This document shows positions 1,750-60,285 of a stretch of 60,285 nt of DNA, in pieces. The stretch lies in the IMG/VR virus record IMGVR_UViG_3300033049_000023, positions 1-60,285 of that record; one strand, written 5' to 3'. A program made the translations under genes and the position numbers. How positions within the stretch are numbered: position 1 is the stretch's first letter; each line of letters starts with the position of its first letter. Source of the stretch: a virus. Under the pieces are notes generated by a model. It saw only the letters and a list, made by a program, of their open reading frames with translations. It ran no database searches and was not told the DNA's origin.

Positions 1750-2471
1750 ATCCGTGGGAACTGACGGTTCGCATTGTCCCTATCTCCGACCTCAAAGAGA
1801 TGGAAAACAATGCCCGCACGCATAGCCCGAGATCGATTGAAGCGATCAAGGACTCACTGGAGCGGAACGAACTTCGCAAGCCCGTGGTGGTGGCTTCGGA
1901 TGGGGTGACTGTGATTGCGGGCAATGGCACACTTGTTGCCGCCCGCCAACTCGGGTGGACTCATCTTTCCGTTGCGGACTCGCCGTTTGAGGCCGGGTCG
2001 AAAGAGGCCCGCGCCTACGCGTTGCAGGATAACCGGACTCAGGAACTTTCGATGTTCGACCGGGACATCCTTGAGGATACTTTGCGGGATTTGGATGATG
2101 GGGCTCTCGGGCTCGGGTGGGACACGGACGAACTATCCGCGTTGCTCCCCCCGCCATCACCGAACGCGGGCGCGGCGGCTCACTTCGGGCAACTCTCAGA
2201 AACTACACACACCATCATTCCCGATGGGGGCTCGGAGGGCTCACCGAGTTCCCCCGGGGGTGTTGGTCTCACGACAAACCCGGTGGTGAATCCATCGGAG
2301 GGGTACGCGACTTTGATCTTGACCGGTACCCAAGAGGAGGTCGCCAAGATGCGTGCGAAACTCAACATCCTCAAATCTCAATGGGGACTCGCGCAACTGG
2401 GGGAGACCGCGTTGCGGTTGCTGAACGAATATGATGCAGGGCCCGGGGCTACCGGGTCGGCTAGTGCTTGA
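1731..2471 (+). CDS. ParB-like nuclease-fold domain protein
   Basis: The 246-residue protein has an N-terminal ParB/sulfiredoxin-like fold. Residues about 14-70 contain the IPISDLKEMENNARTHS strand-loop, followed by SLERNELRKPVVV and then VIAGNGTLVAARQLGW. That last stretch corresponds to the ParB GHxRxxAA box, with GNGT in place of the usual charged motif. ALQDNRTQEL follows, as in phage ParB-like proteins next to terminases or modification genes. The C-terminal half is low complexity and Pro/Gly/Ser-rich. Proteins of this type bind or cut nucleic acid, and some are CTP/ATP-dependent switches. A role in plasmid-style partition is unlikely here because no ParA is visible. Confidence 0.8.
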   Translation: MPEQSVNPWELTVRIVPISDLKEMENNARTHSPRSIEAIKDSLERNELRKPVVVASDGVTVIAGNGTLVAARQLGWTHLSVADSPFEAGSKEARAYALQDNRTQELSMFDRDILEDTLRDLDDGALGLGWDTDELSALLPPPSPNAGAAAHFGQLSETTHTIIPDGGSEGSPSSPGGVGLTTNPVVNPSEGYATLILTGTQEEVAKMRAKLNILKSQWGLAQLGETALRLLNEYDAGPGATGSASA

Positions 2472-2485
2472 TGATGGAGAATGCA

Positions 2486-3298
2486 ATGGAAAACTCAACC
2501 GATCTTCTTACTTGGCCCGACGCGTACCACGGCAAACTTTACAGTGACCCGGACCCCCGCTTCCCCTCGGACCTATACGGGTTTGAGAATGTGACCGAGG
2601 AGAGCAACAACAACGGGGAACCTTGCTCCATCCCAACCTTCGAGGCGGACGGCGTAGGCGGTGGCGTGTTCGGCTATGTGCATAGCGGGCGTGCCGTGGT
2701 GAATGGGCGGGTCGTTGTTGAGGGTCAATGGTTCACCACCGATGACGGGGCCTTCATTGCTCTCAAAGACCCGAACACTCGGATGTTCGCGGTACAACGC
2801 CGAGGATGGAAAGGGTGGAACACGGTTGGCGGTCCTATCGAAAACAAAGGTCGGCTCCGCTATATCGATGGATGCACCGACTCACTTCTTGCTTCACCGA
2901 TCCGGAAGGGCGATGCGTGCCTCAACCATCTCCACTTCCCGGGCGAGATTGACCAGACCCAGCACACCCACCCATCATTGCGATGCGGCATTGTCACCCG
3001 GGGCTCGGGTGAGTGCCGGATTCCAAGCGCGGACGGCAACGGGTACACACCCAAAGCCCTTTCGCCGGGGATGATCTTTGTGATTCCAACGGACGGCGTT
3101 CACGCGTTCTCCACCCTCGGCACCGAGGGTATGGATGTGATTCCGTATCACCCCGATTCAGACTTTGGGCCTGAGGATGAGCATCATCCGATGGTGAACC
3201 GCACGCTTGTGGAAGGTGCCAAACTCGACAACACACAAGGCCGTCACGCGGTCGCTGATCTGGAGAACTCAAGCCTTGGAACTCAAACCGGAAACTAA
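2486..3298 (+). CDS. Cupin-domain protein
   Basis: GGAGA at 2476-2480 fits a start at 2486. The alternative ATG at 2471 overlaps the previous stop and would add five residues. The protein is about 270 residues. Its C-terminal half holds a cupin: QTQHTHPS gives the metal-ligand HxH of motif 1, and GMIFVIPTDGVHAF gives the G-x5-P-x-G-x2-H of motif 2. The N-terminal half repeats a beta-rich pattern and may be a degenerate second cupin. Cupins bind metal and act as isomerases, dioxygenases, lyases or sugar-binding proteins. The gene lies in a block of enzyme-like genes, so a catalytic step in the same pathway is plausible. The substrate cannot be read from the sequence. Confidence 0.75.
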   Translation: MENSTDLLTWPDAYHGKLYSDPDPRFPSDLYGFENVTEESNNNGEPCSIPTFEADGVGGGVFGYVHSGRAVVNGRVVVEGQWFTTDDGAFIALKDPNTRMFAVQRRGWKGWNTVGGPIENKGRLRYIDGCTDSLLASPIRKGDACLNHLHFPGEIDQTQHTHPSLRCGIVTRGSGECRIPSADGNGYTPKALSPGMIFVIPTDGVHAFSTLGTEGMDVIPYHPDSDFGPEDEHHPMVNRTLVEGAKLDNTQGRHAVADLENSSLGTQTGN

Positions 3299-3698
3299 AT
3301 ACCTCGTTGAGATTACTTCCTCACTCGGCGCAAGCATCAATGTTTGTATGCCGGGGCGGGAAGTTACAGCCCTATTGGAAACAAGGTTGAACTCCCCCAA
3401 CTCGGGTGTCTACCAACTCAGCGGCGAAGCACTTGTAGCCGACCAAGAGGGCAACGCGGCGTTTGAGCCGAGGTACTTCTGTGTCACGGTAGACAAAATC
3501 TTTTCGGTTGCGGTCGCCGAACTTCCCGTTCAGGTGGCGACTACCCCGGCGATGGCTCAACCGGCGGCAACTGCGGACGCGACCGGGGCTCACTCGTTTG
3601 TGTGGAACGGGAAAGAGGATGTGTGCCGCAAGTGCGGCCTTACGCTCACGAAAGAGCAACGCACGGCGTGCGCTTTCAATACCGAATGCGAGGGATAA
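3276..3698 (+). CDS. Hypothetical protein with C-terminal zinc-ribbon-like Cys cluster
   Basis: No ATG fits the start of the conserved part. TTG at 3276, preceded by GGAGAA at 3262-3267, is the best start and gives about 140 residues overlapping the cupin gene end. The N-terminal 85 residues are beta-rich. A Pro/Ala linker follows, then CRKCG and two more Cys residues that could bind zinc. Its place between the cupin and the adenylation enzyme suggests an accessory or substrate-binding role. Confidence 0.6.
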   Translation: MELKPETKYLVEITSSLGASINVCMPGREVTALLETRLNSPNSGVYQLSGEALVADQEGNAAFEPRYFCVTVDKIFSVAVAELPVQVATTPAMAQPAATADATGAHSFVWNGKEDVCRKCGLTLTKEQRTACAFNTECEG

Positions 3699-3699
3699 A

Positions 3700-5562
3700 A
3701 TGCGGACTGAAATCTTTGCGGACTCAAAGCGGATGGTGGAAACCATCACCAAATCATTCTTGCAGCGCACCCAACTCTCATTGGTGGGTCCCTCGGCTAT
3801 CTCGATCTATGAGGACGCGATGCGGCTTGCCCCGCCTACGAACTGGGGAGTGGCGGCGTTCTCCTCGGGATCAACCGGTAGACCAAAGCCGATCTTCCAT
3901 ACTTGGGACTGTATCGAAATCAACTCGGCGTGGGTCGGTGTGCAAATCGGGTTTACCAATCACAAGCACATTCACGCGACGATGCTTTCACCGATCCATT
4001 GCAACGCGGCGTTCCTCTCGGTCGTCGGTACCACGATGTTTGGTATCAAACTTCGGTTGCGGGGTAGGACACAATCGATTCAAGATTTTATGTGCATGAT
4101 CGGGGATGCAACATCGTTGTCCCTCTCGCCGATGAATCTCCGAGAAATGATCCGGCACCGGGTGGAACTTCCCGAGTCATTGAAAACCATCGTGTGCGCC
4201 TCGGCCCCGCTCACGCAAGAACTTTGCAAACGGGCGGCACTTCTCTGGGGTCACCGAGCATCGATCATCCGGCAGGGGTACGGGCTTACCGAGTTGGTCA
4301 ACTTCTCATTCCTCATGCCGGACCTCTCTGAAAAGCACTCTGAATGGTTCCGGCTCTACTGTGAGAATGAAACCCCGCCGGTGGGTAAAGCCCTCGGGGA
4401 TACTGAAATCAAGTTTGACACCGATGGAAGTATCTCACTCAAATCCCTCGCGTGTGGTGTCCCTGAGTGGCACAAGACGGGCGATGTGGGATGGGTGGAC
4501 GATGACGGCTATTTGGTATTGACGGGCCGCAAACAGGACACCATCAACCGTGGTGGGGTGAGTGTGTTCCCGGGGGCTCTGGAGAAGCACTTCCCAGACG
4601 CGACCGCGTTCGCCGTGCATTCTGATGTACTGGGCGAGGATTTCGGTGTGTACACCTCAGGCAATACCCCTACTTGTGATTCGCAGTTCTGCGCGGCCAT
4701 CACCGAGCCCCTTCCCACTACGGTAACCGGTAAGCCGATGCGGTCGCGGATGCGGGATTTGCTCCCCGCCGTTCCTGAGATTGATTACGACCGGATGCTT
4801 GCTTCGCTCCAGCATGAATCCAGCCGTGCGGCGGGGTTCGATCAAAACTTGATCCGAAACAAAACCCCGCGTGTGGCGTATGCCCTTACTCAGTTGACCC
4901 GCGTTCCGGTGTTGGCACCCAAATATGGATTCTCAGGTTATCACGCGGTACGCCGTGCGGCGGAATGGATCATGGACAACATCCACGACCTCCCCGCCCA
5001 GTACCCGAAAGATATTTGGGAAGCGTTGATGTGCGAAGAACCGATGGGAATCTATGGCGAGTTCATGGCCCGGTTCATCGCCACCCGACCATCGAACCGA
5101 ATCTTGGAGTTCGGTGCGGGGATGGGCAACACCACCCGCAAGGTTCTGGAGAACTTCGGCGGTGAGCATTACAGCGCAACCGACCTCCTCTCACGAAGTA
5201 ATCCGTGGGATATTTCAGTGGGCCCGTTCGGCTCGGGCGACTTCGATGTTTGCTTCGGCACCAATGTACTCCATGCGGTGCCCGAAACGAAACGGCTTGA
5301 CGCGGTAAAGAATCTCATTGCATCGGTGCGCCCCGGCGGCGTGGTTGCGATCTCTGAGGGTTCGCCGACCATCGACGGGGAGCCGTGGCCGATGAACGGG
5401 CTGTTCCCTATCGATGGATGGTGGGATGTTGGCGGGTTTGAGTCCCGGGATTACTGGGTCGCGTTGTTTGAGACGGCGGGGCTGAAACAGATTTGCACCA
5501 TGCGGCTCGGCTCACAACGACACGACCACGGCGGTCTTGTGTGGGGGTCGCGTGATGGGTGA
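3700..5562 (+). CDS. Adenylate-forming (ANL) enzyme fused to a SAM methyltransferase
   Basis: The start ATG is one base after the previous stop, giving 620 residues. Residues about 54-63 (FSSGSTGRPK) are the phosphate-binding A3 motif of the ANL superfamily. GYGLTE at 193-198 is A5, KTGDVGW near 259-265 is A7, GRKQDTINRGG at 276-286 is A8, and TVTGKPMR at 341-348 carries the A10 lysine. The usual first 100 or more residues of the adenylation fold are missing. From about residue 400 a class I methyltransferase follows, with LEFGAGMGNT at 469-478 as motif I and DVCFGTNVLHAV near 515-526, the style seen in polyketide and peptide synthetase methyltransferases. The enzyme should activate a carboxylic acid as its AMP ester and methylate it or its product. 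No carrier-protein domain is visible. An adenylation-methyltransferase fusion is not a standard phage gene. Confidence 0.85.
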   Translation: MRTEIFADSKRMVETITKSFLQRTQLSLVGPSAISIYEDAMRLAPPTNWGVAAFSSGSTGRPKPIFHTWDCIEINSAWVGVQIGFTNHKHIHATMLSPIHCNAAFLSVVGTTMFGIKLRLRGRTQSIQDFMCMIGDATSLSLSPMNLREMIRHRVELPESLKTIVCASAPLTQELCKRAALLWGHRASIIRQGYGLTELVNFSFLMPDLSEKHSEWFRLYCENETPPVGKALGDTEIKFDTDGSISLKSLACGVPEWHKTGDVGWVDDDGYLVLTGRKQDTINRGGVSVFPGALEKHFPDATAFAVHSDVLGEDFGVYTSGNTPTCDSQFCAAITEPLPTTVTGKPMRSRMRDLLPAVPEIDYDRMLASLQHESSRAAGFDQNLIRNKTPRVAYALTQLTRVPVLAPKYGFSGYHAVRRAAEWIMDNIHDLPAQYPKDIWEALMCEEPMGIYGEFMARFIATRPSNRILEFGAGMGNTTRKVLENFGGEHYSATDLLSRSNPWDISVGPFGSGDFDVCFGTNVLHAVPETKRLDAVKNLIASVRPGGVVAISEGSPTIDGEPWPMNGLFPIDGWWDVGGFESRDYWVALFETAGLKQICTMRLGSQRHDHGGLVWGSRDG

Positions 5563-5908
5563 TCTATATCAAGCGAAGAAATCTTCCGAAATCCAAATCG
5601 ACGCGGATCAGGTTTATGATTTTCACTATGAGTATGACCCAAACCCGGAGCATACAACGGCGGCGAAGTTTCTCCCTTCTGATTCGGTCTCGGGCATTTA
5701 CCTTCTATCGCTCATCAACCGATGGCTTGTGGAGTCCGAGGAGTTCAAGTTCCGTTGCGGCACGAATCTAAATGTGAAGTTCCTCAGACCGATCTTGATC
5801 CACGAAAAGTTGTCCCTCACTGGATACCAACTCGGGGGTAAGATTGATGTAGTGGTGTACGGGCCCGATGGCGTGCAGCGGATGAAGTATCAACTGGAGA
5901 CGGTGTAA
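5555..5908 (+). CDS. Hotdog-fold (thioesterase/dehydratase-like) protein
   Basis: The 117-residue product starts inside the end of the adenylation gene (8-bp overlap). An N-terminal segment (FLPSDSVSGIYLLSLINRWL) is a likely central hot-dog helix. NVKFLRPILIHEKLSLTGY matches the strand-turn of MaoC/FabZ/thioesterase-like hotdog proteins, where RP(V/I) is followed by a turn and an alternating strand. Hotdog enzymes act on acyl thioesters, which fits next to an acyl-activating enzyme. A clear catalytic Asp/His pair is not obvious, so the reaction type is open. The stop overlaps the next gene's ancestral ATG (TAATG at 5906-5910). Confidence 0.6.
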   Translation: MGDLYQAKKSSEIQIDADQVYDFHYEYDPNPEHTTAAKFLPSDSVSGIYLLSLINRWLVESEEFKFRCGTNLNVKFLRPILIHEKLSLTGYQLGGKIDVVVYGPDGVQRMKYQLETV

Positions 5909-5991: not shown

Positions 5992-7137
5992 ATGGATTCG
6001 TCCGATACCATCGTCGTCGGATTTTCCGGCGGCAAGGATTCGACGGCTCTTCTCAATGTGACTCTTGATGTTGCCGAGGAGCGGAACTACGGCCCGGTGA
6101 AGGCAATCTTTTTCGATGAAGAATGTATGCACCCGGAAACGATTGAATATGTTCAGCGGGTTCGGGAGGACCCGCGCGTGGACCTCACTTGGTCATGTAT
6201 CCCGATCAAGAGCCGCAACGCATCGTCCCGGCTCCATCCGTACTATCTGACCTTTGATCCAGACCCCGCCATCGTGCCGCTCTGGGCCCGTCAACCGCCC
6301 GAGGGGGCGTTCACCTCCGAAACCCACCCGACTGTCCCCCAACTCACCCCAATGGACCAGATGGGGCACCTGTTCCCCGTGAGCGAATGCGGCTCGGTGT
6401 GTCATATGCTCGGGCGCAGGTGTCAGGAATCGGTCACCCGGTGGCGGATGATCTCCAACCGGGGCGGCAAGGACGCGTTCATCAGTAAATCACATATGTC
6501 CCGGTGGAAGCACATTCGCGTTGCCGATCCGATTTACGATTGGCGGACTCAGGATGTTTGGGTTGCCCCGCACCTCTACGGGTGGGACTACAACCGGACC
6601 TATGACATTTACGCCCGGATGGGTGTGCCGCTTCATGCTCAACGGGTGGCCCCGGCGTATGCCGAGGAGTCGAAGTTGCTTTGGGCTTACGCGATTGGCT
6701 GGCCCGATCTCTGGGACAAAATCCAAATGCGGGTTCCCGGCGCGGCGTGCTTTGCCCGGTACAACAAAACCAAACTCTACCGGGGCGGGCTGGCGGGAAG
6801 TTGCGAGCCGTCCGAGGGTGAGTCGTGGCAAGATTATGTCCAACGGCTCCTCATGCTCTGGGGACCGGACACCCGGAAACAGGTGGCGGCAAACATCGTG
6901 CAACTCATCAACCGGCACGACCGGCGGTGTATGCAAGAGCAAGGGTTCGTCGATGGGATTCCAGAAATGGAACGGCACATTCTCTCGGGGGTGTCGTGGA
7001 AGATTCTTGCAAAGGTCGCGTTCCAAGGGATGCTCAAAGGGCGGACACTGAGCCAACTTATGCAGTACCGAGGGAAGATTGAAAAAGTAGAAATCACCAC
7101 CAACGAAAGTGAGGGCTCCGATGCCAACGGCGAGTAA
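5992..7137 (+). CDS. PAPS-reductase-family (IbrA-like) PP-loop protein
   Basis: The first ATG after the upstream amber gives 381 residues. SGGKDST at residues 12-18 is the PP-loop that binds ATP in the adenine nucleotide alpha-hydrolase fold. FFDEECMHP and later WRTQDVW are typical of the phosphoadenosine-phosphosulfate reductase family. Overall length and order fit IbrA (DUF3440-type) rather than true CysH, whose C-terminal Cys motif is absent. Family members activate substrates by adenylation, and some (DndC) work in sulfur modification of DNA. It overlaps a ParB/IbrB-like gene, which reproduces the known ibrA-ibrB arrangement. No strong ribosome-binding site precedes 5992, which supports an original start at 5908. 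Confidence 0.8.
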   Translation: MDSSDTIVVGFSGGKDSTALLNVTLDVAEERNYGPVKAIFFDEECMHPETIEYVQRVREDPRVDLTWSCIPIKSRNASSRLHPYYLTFDPDPAIVPLWARQPPEGAFTSETHPTVPQLTPMDQMGHLFPVSECGSVCHMLGRRCQESVTRWRMISNRGGKDAFISKSHMSRWKHIRVADPIYDWRTQDVWVAPHLYGWDYNRTYDIYARMGVPLHAQRVAPAYAEESKLLWAYAIGWPDLWDKIQMRVPGAACFARYNKTKLYRGGLAGSCEPSEGESWQDYVQRLLMLWGPDTRKQVAANIVQLINRHDRRCMQEQGFVDGIPEMERHILSGVSWKILAKVAFQGMLKGRTLSQLMQYRGKIEKVEITTNESEGSDANGE

Positions 7138-7678
7138 GTTTATGGGTACCGAGGCCCAACCAATCTCGATTGTAAAGTGGGTTGATCGCGGTGACCTCAT
7201 CGCAAACGATTACAACCCAAACCATATGGCACCGATGGAATCGAAACTCCTCAAAGTTTCGCTCCTCGAAAACGGTTGGACCCAACCGATTGTCGTGATG
7301 AATGATTGGCGGACGATCATCGACGGATTCCATCGGTGGAACTTGTCGGAGGATACTGAAATCTTTGCGATGACCGGCGGGCTTGTGCCCGTGGTGATGG
7401 CGGACATTTCCGAGGCGCAGCGAATCGCGGCAACGGTCCGGCACAACCGAGCGCGTGGGCAACACGCAATCGATCCGATGGGTGACATCACCCACAAACT
7501 TCGGGCGGTCGGCATGACCGACGACGAAATCAAAACGAATCTTGGGATGCAAGCGGAAGAAGTGATCCGCCTTGCCGAAGTTCGGGGCTCACCTCAGCGG
7601 GTCACCGACGACGAACAGCAGGAACTTGGGGCCGCTTGGAACCCCGGCGAGTACAATCCGCACGCGCCCGGCGAATAA
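7121..7678 (+). CDS. ParB/IbrB-like protein
   Basis: The chosen ATG has GAGGG six bases upstream and overlaps the previous gene by 17 bp. An alternative ATG lies at 7142. The 185-residue protein contains ANDYNPNHMAP, LLKVSLLENGWTQPIVV and TIIDGFHRW, the pattern of ParB-like domains of the IbrB type that accompany IbrA. The C-terminal half has a helical segment (MTDDEIKTNLGMQAEEVIRL) that may be a helix-turn-helix. IbrA/IbrB were described as a pair needed for expression of other genes in E. coli prophages. Their biochemical action is not settled. The operon ends at the terminator just downstream. Confidence 0.8.
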   Translation: MPTASKFMGTEAQPISIVKWVDRGDLIANDYNPNHMAPMESKLLKVSLLENGWTQPIVVMNDWRTIIDGFHRWNLSEDTEIFAMTGGLVPVVMADISEAQRIAATVRHNRARGQHAIDPMGDITHKLRAVGMTDDEIKTNLGMQAEEVIRLAEVRGSPQRVTDDEQQELGAAWNPGEYNPHAPGE

Positions 7679-7831: not shown

Positions 7832-8746
7832 ATGACTATTACAGCAAACGATCTGACCTTCGGCATTGAAATCGAGACCCATGTTTCCCGTGAGAGCAAT
7901 CACCGGCCATCCGGTTACCGCCGCACGAACGACTACGCCACCCGCTTACCTAAGTTCGGGAACGGTTCATGGATGATGACCACCGATGTTACCATTGCGT
8001 GCCCATCGGGCCGGACCGATTGTGAGTTCGTATCACCGATCCTAAAGGGTGCCGATGGCTTGCGGAATGTGATGACCGCCGTGCAAAAGATGCGTGAGGA
8101 AACCCCGGACGGTTGCGGTGCCAAAGTAAACTACTCATGCGGCATCCATGTTCATGTTCAGTTCCCCACCAATGACCTCAAAGCCCTCCGCCGTCTGGTT
8201 CACCTAGTCGCCGCGTTTGAGGGTGGGTTGTACGCCGCGAGCGGAACCAAATCACGCGAGCAAAGTCGCTGGTGCCGGTCGATCAAAGAGACCCACAAAG
8301 GAATCAACGGGAATAAATCGAATCTCCGCGAGGTCATAAACGACAGCGGCGTAAGTCTCAATCATCGCTATGTTTCCTTGAACCTCGTCCCCTTCATCGC
8401 GGGCACTCGCCCCACGGTTGAGTTCCGGTGCTTCTCCGGTTCACTAAACGAAACCAAGATCGCCGGGTATGTCCAAATGTGCATCGGCATGGTTGAGATG
8501 GCGTTGTCGATGAAGTCGGTTGCCCATTGGGATTCCGGCCTTGCCGGTCCTACCTACGGGAAAGACGCTGGACCGGGTGAGCGTGAGTTCAACCGATTGA
8601 TGAAGCGTCTCGGGTGGTCCGGCCTGATGAATAAAAGATCAACAGCCGACCGGGGAATCTTGACCGACGAAACCGGGGACCTCCCCACCAAACGCCGGAT
8701 GCTAAACAAAATGCGTGCGATGGCTCGGAAGTACGATGCCGCATAA
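7832..8746 (+). CDS. Amidoligase (GS-like carboxylate-amine ligase family)
   Basis: The 304-residue protein opens with FGIEIETHV (residues 10-18), the Glu-bearing strand of the putative amidoligase family. CGIHVHVQF follows (His 106 and 108) and EFRCFSGSLN (about 197-206), giving the Glu, His and Arg residues expected of a glutamine-synthetase-like ATP-dependent active site. Family members are predicted to make amide bonds on small molecules or peptides. Two further genes downstream, a cyclotransferase-like and a glutamine amidotransferase protein, complete a known trio. A cell-wall, peptide or DNA-linked substrate is possible. Confidence 0.85.
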   Translation: MTITANDLTFGIEIETHVSRESNHRPSGYRRTNDYATRLPKFGNGSWMMTTDVTIACPSGRTDCEFVSPILKGADGLRNVMTAVQKMREETPDGCGAKVNYSCGIHVHVQFPTNDLKALRRLVHLVAAFEGGLYAASGTKSREQSRWCRSIKETHKGINGNKSNLREVINDSGVSLNHRYVSLNLVPFIAGTRPTVEFRCFSGSLNETKIAGYVQMCIGMVEMALSMKSVAHWDSGLAGPTYGKDAGPGEREFNRLMKRLGWSGLMNKRSTADRGILTDETGDLPTKRRMLNKMRAMARKYDAA

Positions 8747-8769
8747 ATGAAATCCTCATGCCGGGGGCT

Positions 8770-8783
8770 CGGCGGGAACGCCG
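8770..8783 (+). promoter_or_regulatory. Leader hairpin with GGAA loop
   Basis: CGGCG, GGAA and CGCCG form a perfect 5-bp stem with GGA in the tetraloop, about 43 nt before the start at 8827. The position and exposed GGA are what CsrA-family proteins bind. It could also be a simple RNA-stability structure. Confidence 0.45.
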
Positions 8784-8826
8784 GGTTGCCCGATTCTGTT
8801 TCACTCACCTCAGTTGGAGAATAAAA

Positions 8827-9390
8827 ATGTCATACTCACTTGTATTTGTTTATGGAACTTTGATGTCCGGTCACCAAAACGCCCGCCTACTTCACGGCGC
8901 AATGCTTGTCGGTTCGGGCCGGACTGAGAGCAAACTATTCGTTATGCGGGACTCGGGTTTCCCCATCGTTTCCCATGCGACCGCCGAGGACCCCGAGGAT
9001 GCCCGAGGAGCCGTAATAGGCGAGGTGTACCGCGTACCGGATCAAGCTATGCTGGCACGCTTAGACAGTCTGGAGGGGCACCCCACTTGGTACCGCCGTG
9101 AGAATATCACGGTGGCCCTCGATACCGCCGAGGGTGAACCGTCGATTCTCGTTGCTGAAATGTACATCATGCCGAGGGAAATGGCGGACGGTCGGGAGTT
9201 CATCAAAGATTTGGATTATGCGACGCACGAATCAAAGCGTCGGAAGTACCACGCCGCCTATCAACCCATGACCGATGATGAGATTGAGGACGCGGATGAA
9301 GGGTACGCATATTTTTCTGATGCGGCTACTCAGGATGCGGAGGACGATTTGCGGTGGCGGAATGAGGTCGGATTGCCCGATGATGATTGA
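8827..9390 (+). CDS. Gamma-glutamylcyclotransferase (AIG2/GGCT)-like protein
   Basis: GGAG lies seven bases before the ATG. The 187-residue protein begins with VFVYGTLMSG, the substrate-binding YGTL loop of the GGCT fold. LDSLEGHPTWYRR places the catalytic Glu at residue 83 in the usual LDxxEG context. The C-terminal 50 residues are very acidic and lie outside the domain. The fold cleaves gamma-glutamyl amides by cyclisation. Beside an amidoligase it probably trims or edits the gamma-linked product. Confidence 0.85.
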   Translation: MSYSLVFVYGTLMSGHQNARLLHGAMLVGSGRTESKLFVMRDSGFPIVSHATAEDPEDARGAVIGEVYRVPDQAMLARLDSLEGHPTWYRRENITVALDTAEGEPSILVAEMYIMPREMADGREFIKDLDYATHESKRRKYHAAYQPMTDDEIEDADEGYAYFSDAATQDAEDDLRWRNEVGLPDDD

Positions 9391-9396
9391 GCCGAC

Positions 9397-9425
9397 TTGA
9401 CATACCGATCAATATCTTGTATAAT
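9397..9425 (+). promoter_or_regulatory. Consensus sigma-70 promoter
   Basis: TTGACA, a 17-bp spacer and TATAAT match the consensus at every position. GTGTAAATAAAC at 9435-9446 in the initial transcribed region matches the phage's shared promoter element. AGGAG precedes the start at 9468. Confidence 0.9.
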
Positions 9426-9467
9426 GTGATAGATGTGTAAATAAACTACTCACTTAGGAGACTAAAA

Positions 9468-10394
9468 ATGTGCGGACTATTCGGAGCAATATGTAAAGGT
9501 CGTCGGTCGCTCACCGCTTCGACCATACGGAACTTAGCGGTGGCCCAAGAAAAAAGGGGCCCTCACGCGTTCGGGTTTGCGTGGATCGATTCATCAAACC
9601 GGATTCACTACTACAAACAACAGGGCCGCATTTCGCAGGCACTACACACCCTCGATATGATCGGGGACGCGTGGGCGGTGATCGGCCACACCCGTTGGCT
9701 TACCCACGGGAGCGCAGAGCGTATGGAAAACAATCACCCGCATTCGTGTGATGGCGGTTGGATTGCACACAACGGGCAAATACCGAACTACCTCGAACTT
9801 GCCGACGAACACGATTTGATTCTAAACTCAGAATGTGACTCGGAAGTTCTGGCGGCACTCATCGCCCAGACCGGCGGGGGCAAATCATTGATCCGCCGGA
9901 TTTCTACCTCGGTAAATCGATGCGACCGCAACCGACCCCTTGCGATGGCGGGCCTATGGAACCGACCCGGGCGGCTCGCCCTTGTGCGTAGGGGAAACCC
10001 GATCATGCTCGGGGAGGGCGCGGCGGGCAATGTGTACTTTGGTACCTCACGAATCAAATCGACCCGGATGGTTTGGACCGCGATGGATGACAATGAGGTT
10101 CGTGTATTCGATCTCACCTCGGGAGATGAATCGACCCGCTCGGTTTACCGGTCTCACCCGCCGAAGGTTGGCGAGAAGGTGTTGGGCTCGAACTTCTTTG
10201 GCGAAAGAAACTGCTTTGCGGACAATCCCGATCTTGATGGTGCCGACGATCGATCCTACAACTGGGACGCGTTGCCTCAGGCCAAGCGGGGCTCGAACGG
10301 TCACACCTCAGGCGGGCGCAGGAGCGTATTGGGATACAAGGGCCCGGGGATGGTCCAGCGGGCAACGCGTTTGATTACGGAGGGCTCACGATGA
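9468..10394 (+). CDS. Class II glutamine amidotransferase
   Basis: The 308-residue protein starts MCGLFGA, so removal of Met would expose the catalytic N-terminal Cys of the Ntn-hydrolase amidotransferases. KRGPHAFGFAW, HTRWLTHG and NNHPHSCDGGWIAHNGQI are the glutamine-binding and oxyanion motifs. ECDSEVLAALI closes the domain. No synthetase or isomerase domain is attached, so ammonia must be passed to a partner, most likely the amidoligase at 7832. It has its own consensus promoter, which implies high or separately timed expression. Confidence 0.9.
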   Translation: MCGLFGAICKGRRSLTASTIRNLAVAQEKRGPHAFGFAWIDSSNRIHYYKQQGRISQALHTLDMIGDAWAVIGHTRWLTHGSAERMENNHPHSCDGGWIAHNGQIPNYLELADEHDLILNSECDSEVLAALIAQTGGGKSLIRRISTSVNRCDRNRPLAMAGLWNRPGRLALVRRGNPIMLGEGAAGNVYFGTSRIKSTRMVWTAMDDNEVRVFDLTSGDESTRSVYRSHPPKVGEKVLGSNFFGERNCFADNPDLDGADDRSYNWDALPQAKRGSNGHTSGGRRSVLGYKGPGMVQRATRLITEGSR

Positions 10395-11521: not shown

Positions 11522-12181
11522 ATGTCGAACAGACTTACAAATGAAGTAAAGCAGAATATCACCCACGCACTCATCGAGCATAAGTTCGCACCGATCAGGA
11601 AAGAGATCGGCGAGGAGAGTTCCGTTATTGCGGACCTTGCGTACTCACTGATTGTTTCGGATGCGACCGCGAAACTCCTCACCAAACTTGCGCCGGGTTG
11701 GGTCCCGAAGTACGCCGGTCTCTATCTTTCATACGAAGGGAAAACGAACTTCTACAAGTTCTCAGTGGACCCGACGACCGCCCGAGAAGAACGGCGTAGG
11801 TTTATCCCGCATGACATTGAGGCGAATCAAAGTAGCCGTTGCTGTTCACACTTCCAAGACCATTTGAGATTCTCCGCAAGTAGCATCACCACCCGAGCAA
11901 CCGATCCTGTGTATGTCAAACGAAAGACGATTGCCAAAAAGATGAAATCGATGCTGGCGAAGTCTACGAAAATGGCGGACGATACCACCAACGCAAAGTC
12001 ATATATCAAAGCGGTCCTCGACTCGGTGACCACCCGAGCAAAGTTGATTGAGGTGTGGCCAGAGATTGAGAGCGTGGTGGATTCGGTGTGGCCGGTGGTG
12101 ACCGATGAGCCGGGAAACGCGCTGGCGGTCAGGATCGACGACCTCAACGCATCCCTTGACCTCCCACCGAAGAAAAAATAA
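11522..12181 (+). CDS. Nmad5-like protein
   Basis: GGGCTC upstream and the conserved start MSNRLTNEVKQNITHAL favour 11522, giving 219 residues. LIEHKFAPIRKEI, a Leu/Ala-rich helix, and LAPGWVPKYAGLYLSYEG follow the pattern of phage proteins grouped as putative nucleotide-modification-associated domain 5. The assignment is from memory of the family pattern and needs a profile search. The C-terminal half is helical. If correct, it adds to the case that this phage modifies its DNA or nucleotides. Confidence 0.55.
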   Translation: MSNRLTNEVKQNITHALIEHKFAPIRKEIGEESSVIADLAYSLIVSDATAKLLTKLAPGWVPKYAGLYLSYEGKTNFYKFSVDPTTAREERRRFIPHDIEANQSSRCCSHFQDHLRFSASSITTRATDPVYVKRKTIAKKMKSMLAKSTKMADDTTNAKSYIKAVLDSVTTRAKLIEVWPEIESVVDSVWPVVTDEPGNALAVRIDDLNASLDLPPKKK

Positions 12182-43337: not shown

Positions 43338-44213
43338 ATGACTGAGACCGATAAAATCTTCAACTCCCCATACGCGAACCGATTTGTGTTGTACACCTCG
43401 GCGGGCGAGTCTATGGATTTGCAGAATCACTATTTCGGTGAAGCGTTGTTCATCACACTCGGCGGGCCGTCACTCGTAAAAGAGGACCTTGCCGCCCTCC
43501 GCGCCTCGGGTGTAATGACAATGGGTGTGAACAATACTTGGTCGATCTATCGCCCGGACCTTTGGGTGAGCATCGACCCAGCAAGTACCTTCTTGCCTAA
43601 TGGGTGGGCGGACCCCCGCATCCTCAAACTTGTACCGTGTAGCCAGCGGCGCACGCATCTCCGAAGGCGTGAGCCCAACGGGGAGTTCGTCAAGCTCGGG
43701 CGCACACCGGGCAAGAGTCCAAACACATTCTTTTTCAACCCGCACGCCGGGTTCGAGCCCGCGAACTTCTTGGACCACCCCCGCATTGAGATCGGTTCGC
43801 CGGGGACTTCCCGGGATGGGCTCGGCTTCAAGGGGCAACGCTCGGTATTCCTTGCAGCGATCCGGTTCGCCGTCTACTTCGGGTTCAAGCGGGTGTATTT
43901 GCTGGGCGCGGACTTCCATATGGCTGACCCCGGGGAACCGCAGTACGCGACCGGCGAGGAGAAGGGCGTGGGGGGTGTGGTCCACAATAATCGAACCTAC
44001 CGGGCACTCAACGCCAGAATGGAGGCATTGGGCCCGTACCTGACCGCTCAGGGTGTTTCAGTGGTAAACCTGACTACCGACTCGGGGTTGACTTGCCTCC
44101 CCGTAGAGGGGCTTCACGGGGCTCTGGAGAGAGAGGCCCTTTCGGGCCCTGAGGGTGTAGACTCAGTGGGGTACTACGCAAAGCATGAGCCCGAGAAGGA
44201 CCCCGAACCATGA
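43338..44213 (+). CDS. Rossmann-like MptE/DUF115-type protein in the tail operon
   Basis: The 291-residue protein has ALFITLGGPSLVKEDLAAL, MTMGVNNTW, PDLWVSIDP, then FGFKRVYLLGADFHM. This GGPSL/N/D/LxGxD series occurs in MptE-like DUF115 proteins and in related sialyl- or Maf-type glycosyltransferases. It lies between DUF2460 and DUF2163 genes. It may transfer a sugar or nucleotide to a virion protein or host surface. Substrate is unknown. It overlaps the next start. Confidence 0.7.
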   Translation: MTETDKIFNSPYANRFVLYTSAGESMDLQNHYFGEALFITLGGPSLVKEDLAALRASGVMTMGVNNTWSIYRPDLWVSIDPASTFLPNGWADPRILKLVPCSQRRTHLRRREPNGEFVKLGRTPGKSPNTFFFNPHAGFEPANFLDHPRIEIGSPGTSRDGLGFKGQRSVFLAAIRFAVYFGFKRVYLLGADFHMADPGEPQYATGEEKGVGGVVHNNRTYRALNARMEALGPYLTAQGVSVVNLTTDSGLTCLPVEGLHGALEREALSGPEGVDSVGYYAKHEPEKDPEP

Positions 44214-51269: not shown

Positions 51270-51470
51270 ATGCTTGTACTCACTCGAAGAATCGGCGAGC
51301 GTATTTTGATCAAAGGGCCGGATGGATCAAGTGGTTCTATTGAACTCACTCAGATCAAAGGCGACCGCGTAAAACTGGCGTTCAACTTTCCTCCCGAGGT
51401 CCACATTTATCGTGAGGAGATTTTGTTTGGTAAACTCCCCATTCTTGTTGGACCCGAGGAGGAATCGTGA
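51270..51470 (+). CDS. csrA: CsrA/RsmA-family RNA-binding regulator
   Basis: The protein has 66 residues. MLVLTRRIGERILI and VHIYREEI align with CsrA throughout, including Leu4, Arg6, Arg7 and Arg48, the position of the RNA-contacting Arg44 of E. coli CsrA. It should form the domain-swapped dimer that binds GGA in mRNA hairpins. AGGAGG lies five bases before the ATG, and the start codon overlaps CATGGATG, giving a second GGA for autoregulation. The stop overlaps the next start. Phage CsrA homologues are uncommon and may redirect host or phage translation. Confidence 0.92.
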   Translation: MLVLTRRIGERILIKGPDGSSGSIELTQIKGDRVKLAFNFPPEVHIYREEILFGKLPILVGPEEES

Positions 51471-59911: not shown

Positions 59912-60277
59912 ATGAGTAAATATACACACAACCTAGCCAATCTCCGCTTCGTGTTCCCTCAGAGTGTCATGGAGGGATACGAGGATGTTTCGGCTGACTT
60001 GCCAAGCGATCCGTACCCGTCCGTAGAATGGACTTACCCAACCACACCTCACGGGATGCTAATGGCCGCACAAATGGCGGCTCATATGTTCTGCACTCTC
60101 TATAGATCAACACACTCATGCGGCGATATACAGGTTTACATTCTCGGGAAGGGCTGGACAGTATTGGGATTGCAAAACACATACTGCCGGGCGTACCTAC
60201 ACTCGGGCGGTGACCATGACACCGAAATGAACACCCTCACAAAATTGATCTTGACCGATCTGGAAAGTATGCTCTAA
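59912..60277 (+). CDS. Hypothetical protein, 121 aa, spanning the contig junction
   Basis: Chosen start MSKYTHNLANL directly after the promoter. Upstream starts would lie inside the polymerase gene. The C-terminal part is repeated at 1-231. The sequence has no known domain, with a Met/His/Ala-rich middle (MLMAAQMAAHMF). It leads a short series of genes at 232-1169. Confidence 0.7.
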   Translation: MSKYTHNLANLRFVFPQSVMEGYEDVSADLPSDPYPSVEWTYPTTPHGMLMAAQMAAHMFCTLYRSTHSCGDIQVYILGKGWTVLGLQNTYCRAYLHSGGDHDTEMNTLTKLILTDLESML

Positions 60278-60285
60278 ATGAAATG
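60047..60285. repeat. Direct terminal repeat, right copy
   Basis: Identical to 1-239. See the left copy. Confidence 0.95.

Follow-up and report, generated by a model that had tools for sequence, protein, structure and literature searches.

What would a virus do with an enzyme that resembles part of a natural-product assembly line? The question is raised by the IMG/VR virus record IMGVR_UViG_3300033049_000023, whose 60,285 nucleotides (positions 1 to 60,285, hereafter the window) encode an adenylation domain of the ANL superfamily fused to a methyltransferase (ANL-MT) and, overlapping the end of this gene, a hotdog protein. The window is a complete phage genome with a circular or terminally redundant map, because its first and last 239 bases (1-239 and 60047-60285) are identical and the joint of its ends is spanned by a viral contig of 100% identity. 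As judged by homology, the gene pair is real, rare, conserved in phages and related to bacterial natural-product cassettes. The reading that we prefer, to which we give an even chance, is that the phage carries a copy of a cassette from bacterial specialised metabolism. The relevant features are the following.

2486..3298, plus strand: cupin protein, likely partner of ANL-type ligases (Cupin_2, 4.3e-6; match to a Myxococcota cupin)
3276..3698, plus strand: small Cys-rich protein between the cupin and ANL-MT, a putative module member (no family match)
3700..5562, plus strand: ANL adenylation domain (~residues 45-357) and PKS-type C-methyltransferase (~residues 435-620) (Pfam, full-length homologues)
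4717..4752, plus strand: A10 motif TTVTGKPMRSRM with the catalytic Lys345 (alignment of 30 ANL proteins)
5104..5136, plus strand: SAM-binding motif I, LEFGAGMGNTT (residues 469-479), intact in the window
5260..5367, plus strand: region of His525 (TNVLHAV, residues 521-527) and Glu553 (ISEGSP) (phmmer alignments)
5555..5908, plus strand: putative MaoC-like hotdog protein, 117 aa (homologue in a second phage, motif alignment)
5992..7137, plus strand: IbrA-like PAPS reductase-fold protein (phrog_2302, 4e-64)
7121..7678, plus strand: ParB-like protein, IbrB-type partner of the IbrA-like gene (phrog_2159, 2.9e-59)
7832..10394, plus strand: Amidoligase_2, gamma-glutamyl cyclotransferase and class II glutamine amidotransferase (Pfam, 7.1e-23, 6.8e-21 and 2.2e-10)

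The ANL-MT gene (ATG 3700, stop 5562) has an intact frame of 620 aa, and the hotdog gene begins inside it (ATG 5555), with an overlap of 8 bp. A preliminary description of this DNA had proposed a 620-residue protein with ANL motifs A3, A5, A7, A8 and A10 and a polyketide-style methyltransferase, and the coordinates, Pfam matches and motifs agree with it. The cupin, Cys-rich, IbrA-like and two ParB-like genes that it listed are all present nearby. It was also right that the hotdog gene follows directly, but for this protein we prefer the label MaoC-like.

The adenylation domain matches the Pfam AMP-binding family at E = 3.5e-15 (residues 52-239, numbering from 3697), with the motifs at residues 55-63 (A3), 193-198 (A5), 259-264 (A7), 276-286 (A8) and 340-351 (A10). 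All 30 ANL proteins that were aligned share Lys345, Glu198, Asp262 and Arg277. The AlphaFold model derived from this alignment has a mean pLDDT of 71, with most of the core (residues 60-320) at 80-94. Residues 3-358 of the model align with residues 85-483 of Bacillus subtilis MenE (VIA-align, Z = 25.0, 310 residues), and the large-domain fold, hinge and C-terminal lid of the ANL superfamily are all recovered. MatB and other acyl ligases also match the model at Z of 22-25, and the close matches include the amide synthetase McbA. At motif A4, the FDxS of the NRPS domains at locus L010 aligns with HCNA, and the Asp that binds the substrate amino group in amino-acid adenylation domains is thus replaced by His-Cys-Asn, as in acyl ligases. 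This replacement, which occurs throughout the ANL subfamily and not only in the window, suggests that the substrate is probably no alpha-amino acid.

The N-terminal part of the fold had been described as missing, and MenE residues 1-84 do lack a counterpart in the window protein (VIA-align). Part of this is normal for short ANL enzymes: the 362-residue model of the MenE protein PRK07824 aligns nearly in register with the window ANL, and in the short MenE-type acyl ligases PRK07824 and PRK08308 the core likewise begins near A3, although these enzymes have no methyltransferase fusion and belong to a different subfamily. Because natural short ANL enzymes exist, shortness alone is no proof of inactivity. 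Part of it is a real shortening relative to the protein's own relatives. Window residue 54 corresponds to residue 93 of the Streptomyces protein, 110 of the Pseudonocardia protein and 109 of the Myxococcota protein, so that the segment before A3 is ~40-55 residues shorter than in the closest bacterial homologues, and the GYW loop of A6, kept in the ANL of the second phage described below, is deleted in comparison with homologues. Both features count against a phage copy of a bacterial cassette, and loss of activity is conceivable because the phage ANL is without the N-terminal segment and the A6 loop.

The C-terminal domain matches Methyltransf_12 (E = 1.9e-6, residues 470-550, numbering from 3697) and carries, in order, motif I, a His-Glu dyad and a GWW segment, as PKS-type C-methyltransferases do. 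In phmmer alignments His525 and Glu553, which are 28 residues apart, coincide with the corresponding residues of the C-methyltransferases of CurJ, AmxMT1, PsoF and DisA. PKS C-methyltransferases and the anammox protein AmxMT1 were the best matches in sequence searches of a structural database, and the annotated plasmid matches by tblastn are PKS or fatty-acid-type genes. The fold of this domain was judged by sequence only, because the VIA structural list was filled by the ANL domain. Such a dyad has been described in C-methyltransferases (PMC9821293); the part of that source available to us numbers the residues for AmxMT1 only, and the His number does not fit the phmmer alignment. That the His of NVLHA in CurJ and the Glu that follows form the dyad is thus our reading of the alignment. 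Motif I, this His, the Glu after the PGG strand and GWW are shared with the domains of CurJ, DisA, PsoF and citrinin synthase and with the stand-alone AmxMT1, whereas in the window this domain is fused to the end of an adenylation domain, and the chain contains neither a ketosynthase nor a carrier protein. Interrupted NRPS adenylation domains (A-M-A, PDB 5wmm) also combine the two activities in one chain; there, however, the methyltransferase lies inside the adenylation domain, while in the window A10 (340-351) precedes motif I (469) and the amino-binding Asp is absent. Poor alignment of the A10 lysine or of the methyltransferase site, which had been named as grounds for abandoning the assignment, was not seen, and both align well with active families.

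The hotdog protein is harder to place. The window copy itself has no relevant Pfam or family match, which counts against the cassette interpretation; PDB sequence searches gave no reliable match, the AlphaFold model (pLDDT 41) was too poor for use, and a two-sequence profile comparison with MaoC proteins was uninformative. Its homologue in the second phage (blastp 2.4e-9) matches MaoC_dehydratas (PF01575) at E = 1.7e-5, just below the gathering cut-off. The active-site motif D-x-N-P-x-H is found in both phage proteins (YDPNPEH in the window, 5633-5653; YDRNPVH in the second phage) and, by alignment, in MaoC proteins from other loci. On the grounds of this profile match and the shared motif we call the protein MaoC-like, with moderate confidence. 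Classical MaoC-like hydratases and dehydratases are longer and have His in the HG motif, where the window protein has Ser; it also lacks a relevant direct match to the family.

The pair has a single other phage carrier in the collections searched: 50,697 phage records yielded no ANL-MT gene, and 2.9 million viral contigs yielded one besides that of the window, on IMGVR_UViG_3300032053_000032 (phage 2), which was found by profile scan. Phage 2 (85 kb) encodes a 694-aa ANL-MT (1896-3980), its ANL with a longer N-terminus than that of the window, and an overlapping 133-aa hotdog protein (3962-4363) in the same gene order. The layout around the pair differs, with an HNH-like gene on one side and a MuF-like head gene on the other, and the genome has a tail-sheath-like gene (roles judged from sequence). 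No homologue of the window cupin was found in phage 2 by blastp, which counts against the cassette reading. Seven of the 75 window genes match phage 2 at E < 0.01, namely those for ANL-MT, the hotdog protein, IbrA, a ParB, the amidoligase, the cyclotransferase and DNA polymerase. Since ANL-MT and hotdog stay together in a different gene context, they form a conserved unit. The remaining shared genes at most co-occur with it, given their distance in phage 2 (~44 kb for the amidoligase pair, ~67-70 kb for IbrA/ParB). Searches for close relatives by nucleotide sequence or single proteins returned only identical contigs of the same phage. Matches by tblastn to Listeria and faecal "phage" sequences were set aside as unannotated fragments of 22-26% identity that cover the ANL part only.

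The ANL-MT fusion is not an invention of the window phage, as far as homology can tell. Intact full-length homologues were found in Streptomyces G125 (locus L078; 32% identity over residues 54-618 by BLAST, E = 8.6e-61 in the genome search) and in Myxococcota G1379 (locus L119; E = 1.7e-77). The Streptomyces gene is accompanied by cupin, ATP-grasp, MFS and ThrRS-like genes, and the Myxococcota gene by a cupin of the window type, an ATP-grasp ligase and MFS and tRNA-synthetase-like genes. The tRNA-synthetase-like paralogues that adjoin the two intact ANL-MT genes (L119:7304-8758 and L078:9223-10623) are 33% identical, and that of Streptomyces matches threonyl-tRNA ligase models; they possibly reflect tRNA-dependent chemistry or self-resistance. 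The closest plasmid ANL comes from a Pseudonocardia cluster that also encodes a cupin, a type I PKS, an acyl-CoA reductase and a P450. Further relatives occur in Streptomyces and Pseudonocardiaceae genomes, where the majority have NRPS genes and a cupin as neighbors. At the thresholds used, no ANL-MT was detected in 299 genomes from the phylum of an alphaproteobacterial MAG or in 201 genomes from the phylum of an Anaerolineales MAG, although this does not prove that none exists there.

These actinobacterial and myxobacterial loci (L006, L010, L078, L105-L112 and L119, in NRPS/PKS or ATP-grasp clusters) encode the same ANL subfamily, with a QGYGLTE-VNFS signature and a conserved tail, and as in the window a cupin is nearby; L078 and L119 are colinear with the phage protein over its full length. 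They differ in that most have lost the SAM-binding core. Motif I is intact in the window, phage 2, Streptomyces G125 and Myxococcota G1379 and lost in most of the bacterial relatives examined: the core is kept in both phages, deleted in most of the Streptomyces and Pseudonocardiaceae relatives and partial in two of them, and the relatives with a decayed methyltransferase adjoin NRPS/PKS genes. The bacterial loci also carry exporters and ligases that the phage module does not have. The exporter, ATP-grasp ligase and tRNA-synthetase-like proteins of L119 have no blastp match among window proteins, and the amidoligase downstream in the window belongs to a different ligase family from ATP-grasp (Pfam). 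No homologue of the window hotdog was found beside the bacterial ANL copies tested, a further point against a cassette of bacterial origin.

The cupin provides a more specific connection. The window protein is 59% identical (167 aa) to a cupin encoded ~1.5 kb upstream of the intact ANL-MT of G1379, so that full-length homology of ANL-MT and a homologous cupin nearby come together at this locus. Cupins of this type are present in 3 of the 195 Myxococcota genomes searched and all three are near an ANL gene; the other two (L126:7885-8430 and L127:8719-9513) directly adjoin a different ANL ligase and NRPS genes. The G1379 locus and these rare copies are, in our view, the strongest evidence that the cupin and ANL-type enzymes may belong together. 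The Streptomyces cupin was considered as an equivalent and rejected: only Myxococcota and Paraburkholderia cupins match that of the window by BLAST, while the Streptomyces/Pseudonocardiaceae cupin, which has a Cys-rich tail, belongs to a different type. The recurrence of ANL-MT with a cupin in bacterial natural-product clusters favors the small biosynthetic module proposed in the preliminary description, and the recurrence of ANL-MT with hotdog in one unrelated phage only fits its remark that no standard phage system has this layout.

The pair could instead be acquired, decaying cargo, taken from a bacterial cluster with its ANL domain already inactive and with the methyltransferase or the hotdog protein used alone, or neither. 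The short N-terminus and missing A6 loop are what such decay would leave, and ANL-MT is very rare in phages. In a rough tree of ANL domains the window, phage 2 and G1379 proteins fall close to the base of their subfamily. The branch that leads to the window protein, the longest in the family, suits decaying cargo and counts against a functional cassette; its placement is uncertain, with moderate support at nearby nodes. From this tree, which may be compatible with a single phage origin of ANL-MT, we neither claim nor exclude one. We nevertheless judge decay to be unlikely, if worth keeping in mind: the 620-codon frame is intact, the residues of A3, A5, A7, A8 and A10 and the methyltransferase dyad are present, short ANL enzymes exist, and phage 2 has kept the overlapping pair with an ANL that retains the longer N-terminus and the A6 loop.

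The genes downstream invite a second alternative, in which the module makes an acyl group and, jointly with the amidoligase, cyclotransferase and amidotransferase, attaches it to the stem peptides of peptidoglycan or to a different wall polymer, superinfection exclusion being one conceivable use. These three genes, at least 1.9 kb downstream, resemble a predicted peptidoglycan cassette of phages, and similar phage gene sets have been named a peptidoglycan modification cassette (PMC5498523). The amidoligase/cyclotransferase pair is found in phage 2 as well, and amide-forming ligases of the ATP-grasp type are encoded in the bacterial loci with an intact ANL-MT. In phage 2, however, the amidoligase pair is ~44 kb from ANL-MT, and amidoligases occur in many phages in which no ANL-MT was found, which makes modification of the wall or surface a doubtful explanation with a fairly small chance of being correct.

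DNA had also been suggested as a target. Under this hypothesis a base in the phage DNA would receive the acyl group, and the ParB-like, IbrA-like and Nmad5 proteins would serve in recognition or as accessory factors. An Nmad5 family gene is indeed present at 11522-12181 (Pfam 2.9e-16); in Dhillonvirus, a single nmad5 mutation prevents sensing by the Tmn defence and allows phages to escape (PMC11846954). IbrA and a ParB recur in phage 2, and PADLOC gave partial DndC/BrxP-like matches for IbrA and MTase_II-like matches for the ParB-like genes; for ANL-MT, hotdog and cupin it identified no known defence protein. However, no thymidylate-hydroxymethylase-type or other core base-hypermodification enzyme was detected among the Pfam-scanned genes, which do not include every late gene, and this lowers the case for a DNA target, which gained no direct support. 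The bacterial relatives are in natural-product loci and not in DNA-modification loci, and IbrA/ParB pairs occur in other phages that do not have the ANL-MT module. We regard DNA hypermodification as very improbable.

The preliminary description had moreover placed IbrA and ParB in the same pathway, and this did not hold up: the pairs exist without the module and in phage 2 are ~70 kb away from it. The IbrA-like gene is therefore probably a separate system, and the link of the ANL-MT module to IbrA/ParB is weak. A single operon-wide pathway of cupin, IbrA and ParB was rejected for want of synteny in phage 2. Among the 50,697 phage records, 137 match the IbrA-like protein and 76 the amidoligase at E < 1e-5, and the host lists suggest that the two genes overlap in some phages; their co-occurrence is thus weak evidence. 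In phage 2, two adjacent PAPS reductase-like genes (L092:2565-4801) have ParB-like genes on either side.

For the preferred reading, a phage copy of a bacterial specialised-metabolism cassette, the sequences themselves establish the families, the intact ANL and methyltransferase motifs, the full-length homologues and the recurring gene pair; from these we infer the following reactions, together with their order, substrate, acceptor and benefit to the phage. The ANL domain would use ATP to form the adenylate of a carboxylic acid without an alpha-amino group and then transfer it to a thiol, probably that of coenzyme A or a host carrier protein, since no carrier protein was found in the phage by motif search. 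The fused methyltransferase would then methylate the alpha carbon with SAM, as PKS C-methyltransferases do; such an enzyme needs an acidic alpha carbon, and an activated 3-oxo or similar acid would suit. The MaoC-like hotdog could add or remove water at the neighboring bond of the thioester, and a possible role of the cupin is to oxidise or isomerise the product, or to bind it. This product would be a short alpha-methylated acyl unit or an acyl-derived small molecule. An ANL acting directly as an amide or ester synthase, with the methyltransferase making an N- or O-methyl product such as a methyl ester, would agree with McbA among the close structural matches and with the lack of a carrier protein in the motif search, but it is the least probable of the alternatives, given that the methyltransferase aligns with C-methyltransferases down to its His-Glu dyad and GWW segment and that its D-x-N-P-x-H partner suggests thioester chemistry.

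More broadly, and somewhat short of even odds, we suggest that some phages encode a miniature polyketide-like tailoring line (acid activation, alpha-carbon methylation and hydration) whose product, a new acyl compound formed in infected cells, would act as a signal or inhibitor or would tag a macromolecule. Viruses may carry a bit of natural-product chemistry, since the relatives of this protein lie in antibiotic-type clusters of soil bacteria and in one other phage; an active ANL-MT would show that phages do so. It would also offer a compact and genetically simple entry to an ANL-MT family that recurs in clusters of Streptomyces, Pseudonocardiaceae and Myxococcota. We found no description of this family or cassette in the open-licence literature, most subscription journals being outside our scope, and thus no earlier account of the operon, which, with a known product, the preliminary description would have taken as refuting its proposal. 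How accessory enzymes of assembly lines lose domains could be tested on the series from intact to decayed methyltransferases.

Elsewhere in the window, a gene within the tail region (43338-44213) has a weak MptE-like match (0.0011), and a CsrA-like global regulator is encoded at 51270-51470 (Pfam 3.4e-13).
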